Under the pieces are notes generated by a model. That model was not told where the DNA came from and did no database searches. It worked only from the letters and a program-made list of their open reading frames with translations. A DNA stretch of 64,000 nt from assembly GCA_030446485.1 (NCBI GenBank), contig JAUJNF010000010.1:29693-93692 (forward strand). The letters run 5' to 3'. This DNA comes from Thermoleophilaceae bacterium (GTDB lineage: Bacteria > Actinomycetota > Thermoleophilia > Solirubrobacterales > Thermoleophilaceae). The position numbers and the translations under genes are program-made. Within the stretch, counting starts at the first letter, position 1. Each line of letters opens with the position of its first letter. Below are positions 622 through 25,008 of the stretch, one piece after another.

Positions 622-1785
622 CTAACCCCCCAGGCTCGAGCGAAGCCGCTCCACGGCCTCGCCGAGACGCTCGTCGGGAACCGTCAGGGAGATCCGAAAG
701 AAGCCCTCGCCGCTCGCCCCGTAGGCCGAGCCCGGCGAGAGCACGACCGCCGATTCCTCGAGCACCAGCTCGCAGTACGAGGCCGAGGAGTGGCCCGCGG
801 GCACCGGCGCCCAGACGTAGATCGTGGCCTTTGGAGGGTTCACTTCGACGCCGATGTCGCGCAGCGCGTCGCACACGAGGTCACGGCGCCCACGGTAGAC
901 CTCGCTCATCGTCGCTGCCGCGTCGCCCCCGCGCTCGAGCGCCGCGACGGCGGCCACCTGCACCGCCTCGAACATGCCCGAGTCGATGTTGGTCTTCAGG
1001 CGCCAGTACGAGTCGATGGCCTCGGCCCGGCCGACGATCGCCGCCGTGCGCCAGCCGGTCATGTTGTAGCCCTTGGAGAGGGAGAACACCTCCACGCCCA
1101 CCTCCTTGGCCCCGGGGGTGGCCAGGAAGCTCGGGGCGACGTAGCCGTCGAAGGTCGTCTCGGTGTAGGAGGCATCGTGCACGGCGAGGATGTCGTGAGC
1201 GCGCGCGAACGCGACGGTCTGCTCGAACAGCCCGTCGGGCACGACGGCGCCGGTCGGGTTGTTCGGGTAGTTGAGGAAGAGCAGGCGGGCGCGCTCCCGG
1301 TCGGCGGCGGGCACGGCGTCGAGATCCGGCGCGAAGCCCCGCTCGGGAAGCAGCGGCAGCGCCACGCTGTCGGCACCCGCCAGGACCGGACCGCCGGTGT
1401 ACACCGGGTAGCCGGGATCGGCGGCCAGGGCGGCGTCGCCGGCGTCGAGGAACGCGAGGTTGAGGTTGAAGATGCACTCCTTGGCGCCCAGCGCCGGGAT
1501 GATCTCGGTGTCGGGGTCGAGCTCGACGCCGAAGCGGCGGGCGTAGAAGTCGGCCACCGCGCGCCGGAACTCGGGCCGCCCGCGGTTCGACGGGTACTGG
1601 TGCGTGCCGGGGTCCGTCGCGGCGGCCGACAGCGCGTCCACCACCAGTCCCGGAGTGGGCGTGTCGGGATCGCCGATCCCGAGGCTGATCACGTCGATGC
1701 CCTCGGCCTTCTTGGCGGCGATCTTGCGCTCGAGCTCCGCGAAGAGGTACGGCGGGATGCGCTCGAGCCTGCTACTCGGTTTCAT
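622..1785 (-). CDS. dapL: LL-diaminopimelate aminotransferase
   Basis: A 387-residue class I/II PLP aminotransferase. DapL converts tetrahydrodipicolinate and glutamate directly to LL-diaminopimelate, bypassing the succinyl or acetyl branch of lysine and peptidoglycan precursor synthesis. The N-terminal RIPPYLFAEL, the YPSNRGRPEFR substrate loop, NYPNNPTGA (about residues 172-180) and the PLP lysine in SLSKGYNMTGWR (K238) are all visible and typical of the DapL group. The ATG at 1785 overlaps the end of dapF by 14 bases, so the two are translationally coupled. dapA and dapB lie 23 kb away in the same window, which supports DapL over a generic aminotransferase. Length is normal. Confidence 0.88.
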   Translation of the reverse strand: MKPSSRLERIPPYLFAELERKIAAKKAEGIDVISLGIGDPDTPTPGLVVDALSAAATDPGTHQYPSNRGRPEFRRAVADFYARRFGVELDPDTEIIPALGAKECIFNLNLAFLDAGDAALAADPGYPVYTGGPVLAGADSVALPLLPERGFAPDLDAVPAADRERARLLFLNYPNNPTGAVVPDGLFEQTVAFARAHDILAVHDASYTETTFDGYVAPSFLATPGAKEVGVEVFSLSKGYNMTGWRTAAIVGRAEAIDSYWRLKTNIDSGMFEAVQVAAVAALERGGDAAATMSEVYRGRRDLVCDALRDIGVEVNPPKATIYVWAPVPAGHSSASYCELVLEESAVVLSPGSAYGASGEGFFRISLTVPDERLGEAVERLRSSLGG

Positions 1786-2617
1786 GCAGCTCCTCCAGGA
1801 AGTCTTCGCTCAAGGCGCCGCTGTATACCGGAACCGCCCACCCGGTCAGGTCCACATGCAGGTCCTCGCCCACCGCGACCTCCATCTCCCCACCGTCGAG
1901 GCGCACGGTCACCGGGCTGTCAGCGCCGCGCATCACCGCCGCCACGGCGGCCCCGGTGGCGCCGGTGCCCGACGAGAGCGTCTCCCCGACGCCCCGCTCG
2001 AAGATGCGGGCCCGGATCTCCGCGTCGCCGGTGCGGCGCCAGAACGAGACGTTGGTTCGGTTCGGGAAGAGCTCGTGGCCCTCGATCGGGGGACCGAGTT
2101 CGACGAGCTTCAGCTCCTCGAGCTCCTCCCCCACCTCGATCGCGCACTGGGGGTTGCCAACCGATACGTGCTGGAACCGCCACTCGTGACCGGCCGTGGT
2201 GAGCGTTCCCGCGCCGTCGTCCGGGCCCGAGGGAAAGTCCTTCGAGCGCAGCCGCGCTCGGCCCATGTCCACGGTGCACGTGGTCGGCCCCGTGATCCGC
2301 GGGCGGATCTCGCCGGCGGCCGTCTCGATCGAGAAGCTGTCGTGCTCGGTCCACCCGCTGCGGCGCAGGTAGAGGATGGCCTCGCGCGCCCCGTTGCCGG
2401 ACAGCTCGGCCTCGGAGCCGTCCGGGTTGAAGATCCGCAGCCGAGCCACGAAACCCGCCGACGTCGCCTCGGACAGCAGAAGCAGGCCGTCGGAGCCGAC
2501 GCCCGTGTGCGGCCGGCAGATCTTCTCGATGCGCGTGGCGGTCAGCGCGAAGGGAAGCTCCCTCTCTTCGACGACTAGGTAGTCGTTACCGAGCGCCTGC
2601 CACTTCTCGAACCTCAA
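1772..2617 (-). CDS. dapF: Diaminopimelate epimerase family protein with both catalytic Cys replaced by Ser
   Basis: 281 residues, the normal DapF length. The ORF track extends to 2944, but similarity begins at a TTG at 2617 giving (M)RFEKWQALGNDYLVVEE, the classic DapF start. DapF interconverts LL- and meso-diaminopimelate using two cysteines as acid and base. Here the first site reads ELSGNGARE (Ser at residue 73) and the second GETLSSGTGA (Ser at about residue 216), where the family has CGNG and CGTG. Both codons (TCC and TCG) are clear in the sequence. The rest of the fold, including HTGVGSDGLLLL and VSVGNPQCAI, is conserved. It sits directly upstream of dapL. It may be a divergent epimerase or a changed enzyme. 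Confidence 0.85.
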   Translation of the reverse strand: MRFEKWQALGNDYLVVEERELPFALTATRIEKICRPHTGVGSDGLLLLSEATSAGFVARLRIFNPDGSEAELSGNGAREAILYLRRSGWTEHDSFSIETAAGEIRPRITGPTTCTVDMGRARLRSKDFPSGPDDGAGTLTTAGHEWRFQHVSVGNPQCAIEVGEELEELKLVELGPPIEGHELFPNRTNVSFWRRTGDAEIRARIFERGVGETLSSGTGATGAAVAAVMRGADSPVTVRLDGGEMEVAVGEDLHVDLTGWAVPVYSGALSEDFLEELHETE

Positions 2618-2657: not shown

Positions 2658-4727
2658 CTACCTGGCCACCCCGATGCGCTTGCAGCGCTGGCGGTCGCGC
2701 TCCGAGCGGAACTGGCTGTTCCGCTGGTCCTCGCAGCCGGAGCGGCCCCTCGGGCCGCGACCGTTCTGGCCGCCACCGCCCCCGCGCTTGCGCCGAACGG
2801 CCCGGACCGCGGTGCTGCCGGGGTCGAGGCCGCTCTTGGTGGCGCGGGCCGTGAACCGGCCGACCCGTCGCAGCTTGGCCGTGATCGTGACGCGGCCCTG
2901 GGAATCGGTGCGCGCCGTGCGGCCGGCGAAGCGCACCCTGGCACCGCTCACCGGCGTGGCACCGGCCTGCGATCTGCAGGCTCGCGCGCTGCAGTCGATC
3001 CGCGGCGGCAGCTCGCTGCCCTCCCCGGCGGTGGTCGCCGTGAAGCGGAAGCGGGTACGCCGGCCGACGGTGGCGCGCGTGGGGCTCACGGTGAGGCGAA
3101 TCGCACGGCTGACCGGGTCTCCGCCCGGATCCTGGCTGACAAAGGCCTCACTCAGCATCCGGCTCGCGGGGTCGCGGTTGGCCGGAGCGGCGCGTCCGAG
3201 CAGCTCCATCACCGTCGCTGAGACGTCGACGTTCTCGGCCTGTCCGGGATTCTGGGCGGTGTCGTCGCACGAGCCGGCCTGGGCGTCGGTGCACCCGGGT
3301 CCCGGCTGGCCATTCAAGGTCTGCTGGCGCACGAGGTCGCCGCCGATGACGGCGAAAAAGTTGTCCCGGGTCTGCGGCCCGCCGTGGTTGCCGGCGAGCG
3401 GATTGATCGGATCGGAGAAGGCGCTGGCCGTATCGGCGCTCACCAGGAGATCGCCCGTTCGGTCGCCGGCGATGCGCCATTCGGGGTGCACGCCACCGAT
3501 TGTGTTGGTGGCGCCCCCGTCGGCCGGGTTGTCCTCCCGGTATAGGGCTTCCATCACTCCCGGCAGCCGCATGACGCCGCTCGGCCCTATGGCCGCCTCT
3601 CGGAGGCGCTTGAGCAACGTGAACCGATCGGGGCTCGCCCGGTCGGTCAGGTAGACCAGTGCCGCGCTGCCGTTCTGGACGATCCGGTAGCTGCTGGAGG
3701 AGATGCCTGCAGCCCGGAAGCGCTGGTCCAGCGAGAACTTCTCCGGGGTGGTGTCCATCGAGTGGTCCGACAGAGCCACCATGACCGTCCGCTGCCACAG
3801 CCCGAGCTGCTTCTGCTGGTCGACGAAGCGCCGGAGCTGGGCGTCGGCCATGGCGATGGCCTGGTCGTACGCCGGTCCGGCGCCGAAGCCGTGGCCGACC
3901 TGGTCGATCGTCGGGAAGTTGACGAAGGTGAGGTTCGGCCGCTTGGTCTGCCCGTCGGCCGGCACGCCCTCGCGTACCGTGCGGAGCACCTCGTCCATGA
4001 CCACCGCGTCGTCGCGTGCGGTGCCGGTGGCGGGGTTGGTCGGTATCGGACGGCAGTACGACGGGTTGCCCGAGCCGCCGCCGCTGCTCGAATCGCCGGA
4101 CTCCGGGCCGGGTCCGCCCGAGCCCTCACAGGGCGCGAACAGGAAGTCGGCGTCGAAGCTCTTGTTCCCATCCACCGTCCGGCTCGCGAAGATCCGGCCC
4201 AGCTTGGGCTTGCCGAAGATGCCGGCGGTGGTGATCTCCTGCGGGTTCGGCTGGCTCTCCGCCGCCTGAAAGACGGTCTCGGCGTTCACGCAGTTGGCGT
4301 TCTCGCCGCTGACCACCGTGGGCGCCGTGCTCAGGTTGATCGGGCCGGTGGGCGCGCAGCTGTCCCTGTTGGCGGTAGGCGAGTAGACGGCGAAGGAGTT
4401 GCCGGGGATGCCCGAGCTGTTGCCGTACGCGCCAGTGGCCATGGCCGTGTGGTTCGGGTTGGTCTCGGCGACCATGAGGGCGCGCGACTCGCGGTAGTAG
4501 GTGGAGCGCGCGCCGTTCTCGCCGGCCAGCAGCGAGCTCAGGAACGGTGCCCGGCCCTGATCGACCCGGTCGCCGTCGAGGCCGTCGAAGACGAAGACGT
4601 ACACGAGCGGCTTGCTCGTGACGTCGACCGGCGCGGTCTGCGCCGCAGCCGCCGCGGGCAGCACGGCGAGCAGCGCCAGGCAGGTGAGTAGACGAACCAG
4701 CACGGCGCGGAAGTGTGGCAGCTTCAC
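2658..4727 (-). CDS. Secreted alkaline phosphatase superfamily protein (type I phosphodiesterase-like)
   Basis: 689 residues starting with a Sec signal peptide (VRLLTCLALLAVLPAAAAAQ). The catalytic domain carries metal-site motifs of the alkaline phosphatase/nucleotide pyrophosphatase superfamily: VFDGLDGDR near the N-terminus, a Thr nucleophile region AETNPNHTAMATG, TIDQVGHGFG, ALSDHSMD and AGNHGG. After about residue 540 an Ig-like or carboxypeptidase-regulatory-like domain follows (VSPTRATVGRRTRF to FTARATKSGLDPG) and then a basic Gly/Arg tail. It probably hydrolyses phosphodiesters or phosphomonoesters outside the membrane. The substrate cannot be read. It is divergent from the PhoD gene, so the 89-base gap between them should hold both promoters. 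Confidence 0.75.
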   Translation of the reverse strand: MKLPHFRAVLVRLLTCLALLAVLPAAAAAQTAPVDVTSKPLVYVFVFDGLDGDRVDQGRAPFLSSLLAGENGARSTYYRESRALMVAETNPNHTAMATGAYGNSSGIPGNSFAVYSPTANRDSCAPTGPINLSTAPTVVSGENANCVNAETVFQAAESQPNPQEITTAGIFGKPKLGRIFASRTVDGNKSFDADFLFAPCEGSGGPGPESGDSSSGGGSGNPSYCRPIPTNPATGTARDDAVVMDEVLRTVREGVPADGQTKRPNLTFVNFPTIDQVGHGFGAGPAYDQAIAMADAQLRRFVDQQKQLGLWQRTVMVALSDHSMDTTPEKFSLDQRFRAAGISSSSYRIVQNGSAALVYLTDRASPDRFTLLKRLREAAIGPSGVMRLPGVMEALYREDNPADGGATNTIGGVHPEWRIAGDRTGDLLVSADTASAFSDPINPLAGNHGGPQTRDNFFAVIGGDLVRQQTLNGQPGPGCTDAQAGSCDDTAQNPGQAENVDVSATVMELLGRAAPANRDPASRMLSEAFVSQDPGGDPVSRAIRLTVSPTRATVGRRTRFRFTATTAGEGSELPPRIDCSARACRSQAGATPVSGARVRFAGRTARTDSQGRVTITAKLRRVGRFTARATKSGLDPGSTAVRAVRRKRGGGGGQNGRGPRGRSGCEDQRNSQFRSERDRQRCKRIGVAR

Positions 4728-4816: not shown

Positions 4817-6491
4817 GTGCGTCACACTTTCGCCCTCATGCCGCCCCGAGTCGACCTTCCCCTCAGCCGCCGCACGCTCTTGAGCGGCGCGGCCGTGGGC
4901 GCCGGCGGGCTGGTGATCGCCGGGGATGCGACCGCGTTGGCCCGGGCACGCCGCCGCACCCGCTACGCGCGCACCCCTCGCCAAGGGCGTGAAGTACGGG
5001 CAGGGAGTTGCCTCCGGGCAGCCGGGTACCAGGGGGATCACGCTGTGGACGCGGGTCGAGGGCCTCGACCGGACGTCGCGGCTGCAGGTCGAGGTCTCGC
5101 CCGACGAGGACTTCAGGCGGATCGTGGCCCGCAACGACGTGATGGCCGAGCAAGCGCGCGACTTCACGATCCACACGCGGGTCACCCGCGGCCTCAGGCC
5201 CGGCGAGCAGTACTTCTACCGCTTCTACACCTGCATGGACGAGAACAGCCAGGTCGGCCGCTTCCGCACGGCCCGCCCCGCCGACTCCCGCGAGCCGGTG
5301 CGCATCGGCTTCTTCTCGTGCCAGGAGTACGGGTCGGGCTTCTACACCGCCCACGCCGCCCTGGCCCGAGAGGCGGATCTCGACCTGGTGATCGGCCTCG
5401 GCGACTACATCTACGAGCGCGTCTTCGAGCGTAACCCGATCCGGTCCGACACCACCGGCGCCAACCGCGACGGCGAGGTCCAGACCCTTCCCGAGTACCA
5501 CGAGAAGTACAACCTCTACAACGCGGACCCGGAGCTGATCCGGATGCGGGCCAGCCATCCGATGATGGCCATCTGGGACGACCACGAGGTCGAGGACAAC
5601 TACGCCCGGGAGAAGCCCGGCGAAGCCACGAGGCAGGTGCGGATCCCGTTCCTGCAGCGTCAGCGCAACGGGTACGACGCGTTCTTCGACCACATGCCGC
5701 GCATTCGCGTCAGGAAGGATCCGGACCAGATCTTCGGTCGCATCGGCCTGGGAGGCAGCGCCGACGTGTTCCTGCTGGATCAGCGGCGCTTCCGCGACGA
5801 CCAGGCCTGCGGCGACGAGTTCGCCGTGCCCTGCGGTGAGCAGGACGATCCGGGGCGGACCCTTCTCGGCCAGGATCAGAAGCGCTGGCTGCTCGACGGT
5901 CTCGCCGCCTCACGCGCCACCTGGAAGATCGTGGGCAACCAGGTGATGATCATGGCGCTCGACGTGCCGCGCGGGAACGCGCTGAACCCGGACCAGTGGG
6001 ACGGCTACGCGGCCGAGCGCGCGGAGCTCCTGAACTTCATCCGCGACCGGGGGATCGAGGACGTGTCCTTCGTGACCGGCGACATCCACACCTTCTTCGC
6101 CGGCAACGTGTCCCCCACCGGCCGCCAGAACGAGGTTCGTCTGCCAGAGGCGGTGGCCACCGAGTTCGTCGGCGGCTCGATCAGCTCGAAGGGGATCTTC
6201 GACCAAGCGGGGGGCGAGGGGGGTCGCGACGTCACGGCGTTCCCGAGCGACCAAGGCGTCTTCATCAACAACCCGCACATCCGCTTCAGCAATCAGAGCT
6301 TCAAGGGCTACGGCGTGCTCGAGGCCGGGCCCGAGGAGCTGCGCGTGGCGTACCGGGCGGTACGCACCACGCAGGCTCGAGAGAGCGAGCCGTTCACGCT
6401 GGCCGAGTTCCGGGTGGCCCGCGGGCGCCCCGAGGTCGAGGTGGTGCGGGCGCCTACCACCGGCCCGCAGCCGCTGCCGCTCGTGCCCTGA
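4817..6491 (+). CDS. phoD: Alkaline phosphatase D (PhoD family), Tat-exported; frameshifted near the signal peptide
   Basis: The Tat signal (LSRRTLLSGAAVGAGGLVIAG, ATG at 4817 or 4838) lies in one frame and the mature enzyme in another, beginning GVKYGQGVASGQPGTRG. The two join near 4968-4985 in a GC-rich run if one base is restored. PhoD enzymes are extracytoplasmic Ca/Fe phosphodiesterase-phosphomonoesterases. An N-terminal PhoD_N Fn3-like domain and the metallophosphatase core are visible, with GLGDYIYE, WDDHEVEDNY and FVTGDIHTFF as metal ligands. The joined length of about 557 residues is normal. Because the downstream frame is intact for 500 codons, a sequencing indel is more likely than a pseudogene. 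Confidence 0.82.
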
Positions 6492-22446: not shown

Positions 22447-24112
22447 CTAGACCTCCACCACCACCGGGAGCACGAGCGGCCGGCGCTTCAGGCGGTCGTA
22501 CACGAAGCGCGCGATGTCGTCGTGCAGGTGGTCCTGGAGCATCGCTATCTCGCGGATGTGCTCGGCCGCCGAGCGGTCGAGGGAGTCCTCCACCGCCTCC
22601 CGGATGTCCCCGATCAGGCCGTCGGCCTCGTCGAGGAACGGCACGCCCCGGAAGATCAGCTCCGGCGGCACCACCGAGCGGCCGTCCTGCTCGGAGACCG
22701 TGGCCACGACGATGAAGATGCCGTCGGCCGACAGCATCCGCCGGTCGCGCAGGGCGACGTCCTCGATGTCTCCCACGTCCACGCCGTCGACGAAGATCAT
22801 CCCGGCCTGCTCCTTCTTGGCGAAGCGGGCGGTGCGGGCGTCGATCTCCAGCGGCAGGCCGTTCTCGCCGCGGAACACGTCGCCCGGGTGGATGCCCACC
22901 GCCTCGGCGAGCTGGCCATGCAGACGAAGCCGCTTGTGGTCGCCGTGGAACGGGAAGACGTAGCGCGGGTTGGTGAGGTTCAGCATCAGCTTGATCTCCT
23001 CGGCGTAGCCGTGGCCCGAGGCGTGGATGGGCGCATCGCGGGCGGTGATCACGTCTGCATCGAGCTGATAGATGCGGTCGATCGTCTCGTTCACGGCACG
23101 CTCGTTGCCCGGGATCGGCGTGGCCGAGAAGATCACGGTGTCGCCTCGGCGCAGCTTCACCTGCGGGTGGTCGCCATGGGCCATCCGGCGCAGCGCCGAG
23201 AGCGGCTCGCCCTGGCTGCCGGTCGAGATGACCACGAGCTTGTGGTCGGGAAAGTCCTCGACCTCCTTCACCCCCACCAGGAGCCCGTCCGGGACCTCGA
23301 TGTGGCCGAGCTGCCGGCCGATGTTCACGTTCTTGCGCATCGACCGGCCCACGAGCGAGACCTTCCGCCCCAGCGCGGCCGCGGCGTCCATGACCTGCTG
23401 CACGCGGTGGATGTTCGAGGCGAAGGACGTGACGATGATGCGCCCCGGCAGCGCGCGAACACCTGCTCGAGATGGGGGCCGACGCTCGACTCCGACACCG
23501 CGATACCTGGTCGGTCGACGTTCGTCGAGTCCCCGCACAGGACGAGCACGCCCTCGCGTCCAAGCTCGGCGAGACGGGCGACGTCGGCGGGCACCCCGTC
23601 CACCGGGGTCTGATCGAACTTGTAGTCCCCGGTGATCAGCGTGGTGCCGAGCTCGCAGGTGAGGGCTACGGCGGTGGCATCGGGGATCGAGTGCGCCATC
23701 TTGATGGTCTCGATGTCGAACGGCCCGGCGTCGAACTCCTCGCCCGGCGCGACGGCCTGCAGGCGCACGTCCTTGAGCCGGTGCTCGTCGAGCTTCGAGC
23801 GCACCATCTCGATGGTGAGCGGGCCGCCGTAGACCGCCGGTATGGCCTTCTGCCCGAGCTCCCGGAGCAGATAGGGCAGCGAGCCGACGTGGTCCTCGTG
23901 CCCGTGGGTCAGGACCACCGCCTCGATGTCGTTCGCGCGCTCGCGCAGGTAGGCGAAGTCCGGCAGCACCAGGTCGATCCCGAGCTGGTCCGGGGCGGGA
24001 ACATGAGCCCCGAGTCGACGACGACGATGCGCCCGTCGTACTCGACCACGGTCATGTTCTTGCCGATCTCGCCCAGGCCGCCCAGTGGCAGCACGCGCAG
24101 CGTTCCGCTCAT
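22447..24112 (-). CDS. rnj: Ribonuclease J (metallo-beta-lactamase/beta-CASP), two frameshifts in this sequence
   Basis: The N-terminus [20 protein letters not shown] is in one frame to GLMFPP (about 24000). A second frame then carries [13 protein letters not shown], the zinc site [11 protein letters not shown] and [10 protein letters not shown] to about 23455. A third frame carries [47 protein letters not shown] and the C-terminal domain to the TAG at 22447. Restoring one base at each junction gives about 555 residues, the normal length. RNase J is a 5'-3' exo- and endonuclease of mRNA decay and rRNA maturation. It is followed by the histidine kinase operon in convergent orientation. Confidence 0.88.
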
Positions 24113-24160
24113 CGGGCGACCAGGCGGCCCCCGGCCGCCTCGTGCTGCTGGGTCGGAGCT

Positions 24161-25008
24161 TCAAACCGCGGACAGCAGGCCCTGGCGCTCGAGCGCCGCA
24201 CGAACGATCGCCGCCTCGTCCTCGGAGGCATCAACGAGCGGCAACCGGAAGCCGCCGACGTCGTGGCCCAGCATGCCGAGCGCGGTCTTGATCGGGATCG
24301 GGTTGATCGTCGCACCCAGGGCGTTGAACAGCGGGAGGAGCGATTCCTGCAGCTCCGGCCGGTTCTCGGGCTCGTCGATCATCCGTCGCATCTCGGGGCC
24401 CACGATATGCGAGGCCACGCAGATCCCTCCCGGGCCCCCATGTCGAGCACCGAGGCCAGCATGTCGTCGTTGCCGGCCAGCAGATCGAGGCCCTCGACCG
24501 GAGCAAGGTTCTCGTAGCCGGCCTGCTTGACCGCCGTCACGTTCGGGATCTCCGCGAGCTCGCGCAGCAGGTCGTTCGGCATGTCGATCACCACGCGCGA
24601 CGGGATGTTGTAGAGCACCACCGGCAGGTCGCTCGCGCCCGCCACGGCACGGAAGTGCTCGATCAGCCCGCGGCGATTCGGCTTGTTGTAGTAGGGGGCC
24701 ACCACCAGCACCGCGTCGACCCCGATGGCGGCGGCCCGTGCGGTGAGCTCGACCGAGTGTGCCGTGTCGTTCGAGCCGGTGTTGGCTATCACCGGCGCCC
24801 CGCGCGCCTCGGCCACCGCCAGCTCGAACAGCGAGCACTTCTCGTCGTCGGACAGGGTGGAGCCCTCCCCGGTCGATCCTGCCACCACCAGCCCGTCGGA
24901 GCCGTGCTCGAGCAGGTACCTGACCATCGCGGCGGCCGCCTCCTCGTCGAGACGGCCGTCGGGACGGAACGGCGTGACCATCGCCGTGAAGATGCCTCCG
25001 AGCGTCAC
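24161..25008 (-). CDS. dapA: 4-hydroxy-tetrahydrodipicolinate synthase, one frameshift
   Basis: DapA condenses pyruvate and aspartate semialdehyde, the first committed step to lysine and DAP. GIFTAMVTPFRPDG, GSTGEGSTLSDDE, the YYNKPN loop, VLYNIPSRV and the region of the Schiff-base lysine (NVTAVKQAGYEN) are present. After LASVLDMGA (about 24435, in a run of C and G) the frame shifts and continues as GGICVASHIVGPEMRRM to LERQGLLSAV. Repaired length is about 282 residues. It is upstream of RNase J in the same orientation, an arrangement (dapA-rnj) seen in actinobacteria. Confidence 0.9.

Follow-up and report, generated by a model that had tools for sequence, protein, structure and literature searches.

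Cysteine pairs in DapF and related enzymes

The catalytic residues listed for the diaminopimelate (DAP) epimerase DapF of Haemophilus influenzae are Cys73, His159, Glu208, and Cys217 (PMC3581254). The thiol has been regarded as essential in the DapF family because Cys-to-Ser forms are almost dead, and how the thiolate, a weak base, abstracts an alpha proton of very low acidity has long been a puzzle. The pyridoxal phosphate-independent racemases HisR and PddB, which have the fold family and two-base mechanism of DapF, also depend on cysteine. Within the proline racemase superfamily, a 4-hydroxyproline epimerase uses the catalytic pair Ser93/Cys236, and an enzyme without both cysteines (Ser90/Thr256) is a trans-3-hydroxyproline dehydratase (PMC4113996). 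Here we describe a dapF gene from a Thermoleophilaceae bacterium, located in a 64,000-nucleotide stretch of contig JAUJNF010000010.1 (assembly GCA_030446485.1, positions 29,693 to 93,692; hereafter, the window), whose product has serine at both catalytic cysteine positions (Ser/Ser). This product is probably the cell's working DAP epimerase, converting LL-DAP to meso-DAP with the two serines as its acid-base pair.

A DapF with serine at both catalytic positions

The gene, the codons of interest, and the adjacent dapL are as follows.

1772–2617, minus strand: dapF, Ser/Ser diaminopimelate epimerase as judged from translation, profiles, and predicted structure; 281 aa plus stop, TTG start
2399–2401, minus strand: Ser73 codon (TCC), replacing catalytic Cys73, just before model helix 74–86; placed by alignment to solved DapFs
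1970–1972, minus strand: Ser216 codon (TCG), replacing catalytic Cys217, just before model helix 217–229; placed by alignment to solved DapFs
2147–2149, minus strand: Gln157 codon, replacing catalytic His159 (VGNPQC versus GNPH)
622–1785, minus strand: dapL, LL-diaminopimelate aminotransferase (NF006756, 528 bits versus a cut-off of 507), predicted to supply LL-DAP

The dapF product scores well above the cut-offs of the TIGR00652 equivalog profile (202.6 versus 114.65 bits) and of PF01678 (143.5 versus 34.7 bits); DAP_epimerase is its sole Pfam match, and nearly all of its best PDB sequence matches are DapF. In the PDB comparison, Ser73 (context ELSGNG) and Ser216 (ETLSSGTG) both line up with the catalytic Cys pair of solved DapFs. 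The AlphaFold2 model has a mean pLDDT of 97.3, and its top Foldseek matches are again DapF (best E 4.8e-33). The model helices start at 74 and 217, so that both serines lie at helix N-termini, like the catalytic cysteines of the fold (PMC11602996). These results bear out the initial annotation, which had read serine at residue 73 and at about residue 216 in an otherwise conserved DapF whose gene is coupled to dapL: the codons are as given above, the profile scores, fold, and substrate-contact residues are intact, and the dapF stop overlaps the dapL start. The exception to the conservation, Gln157 in place of His159, had gone unnoticed.

Canonical DapFs from H. influenzae, Escherichia coli, Corynebacterium glutamicum, and Arabidopsis have the same fold as the window DapF (TM-score 0.74–0.91) and share with it the TIGR00652 and PF01678 profiles, the DAP-contact residues, and the pathway position, but they have Cys73, Cys217, and His159 where it has Ser, Ser, and Gln, the last being order-specific. 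Since both sites at which DapF is expected to carry a catalytic cysteine hold serine, we class the product as a DapF variant and not as a canonical member. The top Foldseek matches include the engineered C73S and C217S forms of H. influenzae DapF (PDB 2q9h, 2q9j), which have the same residues at the same sites as the window DapF but are single mutants, whereas the window protein represents a natural, conserved double state. The Ser/Cys 4-hydroxyproline 2-epimerase and the Ser/Thr dehydratase resemble the window DapF in having a related fold and a serine acid/base at the first Cys position; they act on other substrates, and the cysteine-free one is a dehydratase, not an epimerase. By Pfam profile and close structural match (Foldseek), the window protein falls outside the Ser/Cys epimerases of the proline racemase superfamily, as proline racemase and hydroxyproline epimerase structures are only distant Foldseek matches (13–18% identity). 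The Ser/Cys hydroxyproline epimerase is the nearest characterized precedent. We found no earlier description of a Ser/Ser DapF in the literature searched, which left most subscription papers out of reach.

Distribution within Thermoleophilia

Within the family and order of the window, 60 of 61 genomes have a DapF match. Ser73 is present in every locus read from them (64/64, L004–L067), as is serine at the second site in all 63 loci whose sequence reaches it. Loci fetched from named genomes (n=80) comprised 76 Ser/Ser, 3 Cys/Cys, and 1 truncated. Ser/Ser DapFs occur in three cultured type strains, Conexibacter arvalis DSM 23288, Patulibacter minatonensis DSM 18081, and Solirubrobacter taibaiensis KCTC 29222, each of which has exactly one PF01678 gene. 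In other parts of the class, Ser/Ser is found in families f7 and f11 and Cys/Cys in f5, f6, and f8; f9 also has Cys/Cys, apart from one Ser/Cys member. The Ser/Ser DapF is a clade-wide state and not a quirk of one genome, and close relatives are themselves Ser/Ser, not Cys/Cys, which leaves the initial claim of a paired loss standing.

The identical serines in many independent genomes, isolates included, rule out a sequencing or assembly artefact as the source of both residues; we give this explanation practically no weight, even though two other genes of the window, dapA and the RNase J gene, are each split between frames. The dapA gene is divided over two overlapping frames (24161–25008, minus strand), with TIGR00674 positions 2–197 in ORF 24379–25008 and positions 194–284 in ORF 24161–24838, reflecting either an assembly indel error or a real frameshift. 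RNase J is similarly divided (22447–24164, minus strand; profile positions 32–217 and 213–548), and the two splits together suggest that the metagenome-assembled genome of the window may carry indel errors.

Natural exchange series and origins in Actinomycetota

We scanned Actinomycetota, the one phylum covered, by motif and by family, read out the sequences, and dropped 11 motif-scan loci without a DapF match. The resulting 293 DapFs comprise 187 Ser/Ser, 81 Cys/Cys, 15 Ser/Cys, 7 Cys/Ser, and 3 truncated proteins, proportions that are not frequencies because the Ser73 motif served to select some loci and similarity to the window many. The 190 DapFs that came from the own, class, and phylum searches without the Ser73 motif divide into 97 Ser/Ser, 78 Cys/Cys, 6 Ser/Cys, 7 Cys/Ser, and 2 truncated. 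No residue other than Cys or Ser occurs at either catalytic site among the 290 DapFs in which both sites are present. The mixed forms, like the second Ser/Ser origin described below, had not been noticed in the initial annotation; the reverse hybrid, Cys73 with a second-site Ser, is found in seven DapFs of other actinobacterial families (L294, L298, L301, L302, L309, L310, and L312).

At each site, serine is encoded by TCN in some proteins and by AGY in others, two codon sets that cannot be interconverted by one base change. A quick tree that leaves out the two catalytic columns and contains many open forks requires a minimum of 13 state changes. A single origin for all Ser/Ser DapFs in the phylum was rejected in the approximately unbiased test (p-AU 1.2e-5). 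Separate origins within Thermoleophilia, hinted at by the quick tree, were dropped since the tree that held the Thermoleophilia Ser/Ser proteins as one clade scored better and was not rejected (p-AU 0.886). By these sequence comparisons, there are at least two Ser/Ser origins, one in Thermoleophilia and one in families f46/f49. The f46/f49 group contains a Ser/Cys member. Outside the class, genome G347 encodes, beside a Cys/Cys copy (L282), a DapF-like paralogue (L283) that is Ser/Ser and whose altered motif reads SSATG; this paralogue may represent a third origin.

Other active-site residues and selection

Every one of the 145 Ser/Ser proteins from the window's order has Gln at the position of His159; the remaining 146 compared proteins, including Ser/Ser lineages outside that order, have His. 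With Ser73, Ser216, and Gln157, three of the four listed catalytic residues are thus replaced in the window's order, the Gln being specific to it; the equivalent of the fourth, Glu208, is retained as Glu207. N11, N64, G74, N75, N155, N189, E207, R208, G217, and T/S218 are conserved with isolated exceptions only and correspond to the DAP contacts of the CgDapF complex (PMC5296763), and the window DapF itself has the DAP-binding residues N11, N64, N75, N155, N189, E207, R208, and T218. Ser215 co-occurs with Ser216 in several lineages; tests of whether Ser216 covaries with Ser215 or with the loss of Cys221 pointed in a consistent direction but, with too few independent pairs, did not reach significance.

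Pairwise ratios of nonsynonymous to synonymous substitution rates (dN/dS) among relatives are low, at 0.09–0.31. The initial annotation had proposed that the two matched losses were selected and not random, and this view is supported; the paired Cys-to-Ser substitution is clade-wide.

Pathway context

In the known pathway, DapL makes LL-DAP and LysA uses meso-DAP, so that an LL-to-meso epimerase is required. In most relatives with neighboring sequence, dapF lies beside dapL, overlapping it or close to it. We examined 16 genomes of Ser/Ser lineages (the window's own, the three isolates, and twelve others), and LysA was above cut-off in all 16, while DAP dehydrogenase was above cut-off in none. 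A second dapF was not found in the window's genome (76% complete) or in the three isolate genomes. A bypass by either enzyme, which the initial annotation had named as something to look for, was therefore set aside for the genomes searched. Across the class, DAP dehydrogenase was above cut-off in 1 of 119 genomes (G086, 422 bits), which also has a dapF (L203) and belongs to family f5, whose sampled DapFs are Cys/Cys. The peptidoglycan of Solirubrobacterales has been reported to contain meso-DAP (PMC3035278), as have whole-cell hydrolysates of a Solirubrobacter (PMC10722151). The window DapF is the only candidate found for the required epimerase.

Proposed mechanism and alternative explanations

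We propose that the adjacent dapL product would supply LL-DAP and that DapF would convert it to the meso-DAP that LysA and the cell wall require. The serines themselves would move the proton in a conventional two-base transfer, Ser73 acting from one face and Ser216 from the opposite one. As Cys-to-Ser relatives are nearly dead and the precedent keeps one Cys, something else must compensate in a Ser/Ser DapF; Gln157 in the window's order, and perhaps Ser215, might lower the cost of thiol loss. The initial annotation had held that the mechanism, or the reaction, must differ. A changed reaction is not supported, given the LysA and DAP dehydrogenase results, the meso-DAP reports, and the unchanged contacts, but a retuned mechanism for the same reaction is plausible. 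In broader terms, we lean toward a naturally evolved, cofactor-independent amino acid epimerase that has no catalytic cysteines, that would achieve Ser/Ser two-base transfer at a physiologically sufficient rate and that appears to have evolved at least twice, with one-Cys forms as possible intermediates.

Several points weigh against this proposal. PddB Cys-to-Ser mutants retain <0.1% activity, and similarly faint activity is reported for Mt-DapF mutants (PMC8225329); HisR Cys-to-Ser mutants are greatly reduced (PMC11602996). The characterized hydroxyproline epimerase retains one Cys (PMC4113996). The incompleteness of the window's genome also counts here, the meso-DAP reports are at order level and not for the window's uncultured organism or the three isolates individually (PMC3035278, PMC10722151), and an epimerase of an unrecognized family would escape the profile searches used.

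As to why the thiols were lost, a redox cause, compatible with the serine-based epimerase proposed above, can be suggested tentatively. CgDapF is inactivated by a reversible Cys83-Cys221 disulfide (PMC5296763), a switch that is impossible in a Ser/Ser DapF, and immunity to such inactivation under oxidation is a possible advantage of the serine pair. Other cysteines are also somewhat fewer in Ser/Ser proteins (mean 3.1 versus 4.3, in a count that ignores relatedness). However, one change would be enough to block the disulfide, yet both residues changed and remained so, and many actinobacteria keep Cys/Cys.

It is unlikely that the protein is a DAP epimerase in which the serines only order the site, with Glu207, a bound ion or water, or a cofactor moving the proton. 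Serine is a poor base, and Gln157 at the third catalytic residue indicates that the machinery in the window's order is altered beyond the two cysteines. On the other hand, Ala, Gly, and Thr never occur at either position in the proteins read, which argues for a need for the hydroxyl; enzymes with mixed Ser/Cys and Cys/Ser pairs exist; and the active-site columns that we inspected show no new conserved acid or base.

Less likely still is a change of reaction or substrate, with meso-DAP made by an unrecognized epimerase or dehydrogenase. Both thiols are lost, together with His159 in the window's order, and DapF-fold proteins with other substrates are known (HisR, PddB, and O-ureidoserine racemase). 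Against this, the DAP contacts are kept, dapF stays by dapL and is single-copy in the isolates, LysA is retained in the tested genomes with no DAP dehydrogenase above cut-off, and such a change would have had to occur more than once independently.

A catalytically dead DapF, retained for some function other than catalysis, like the partnership of E. coli DapF with RppH, is very improbable. Cys-to-Ser forms of such racemases are indeed almost inactive, and structures of E. coli RppH-DapF complexes have been solved, but purifying selection acts on the entire substrate pocket, and a dead enzyme would leave the three isolates without a source of meso-DAP.

Implications of a proposed thiol-free DAP epimerase

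If the serine-based epimerase is confirmed, an essential epimerase of the cell-wall and lysine pathways would run without thiols in a whole order of soil bacteria and in certain unrelated actinobacteria. The natural series of Cys/Cys, Ser/Cys, Cys/Ser, and Ser/Ser enzymes, apparently acting on one substrate, offers a direct test of which residues make serine sufficient. Thiol-directed DapF inhibitors should fail on Ser/Ser enzymes, and annotation by catalytic motif could wrongly cast doubt on an essential gene.

Adjoining dapF in the window are genes for a type I phosphodiesterase-like protein (2658–4727, minus strand) and a PhoD-like alkaline phosphatase (4926–6491, plus strand).
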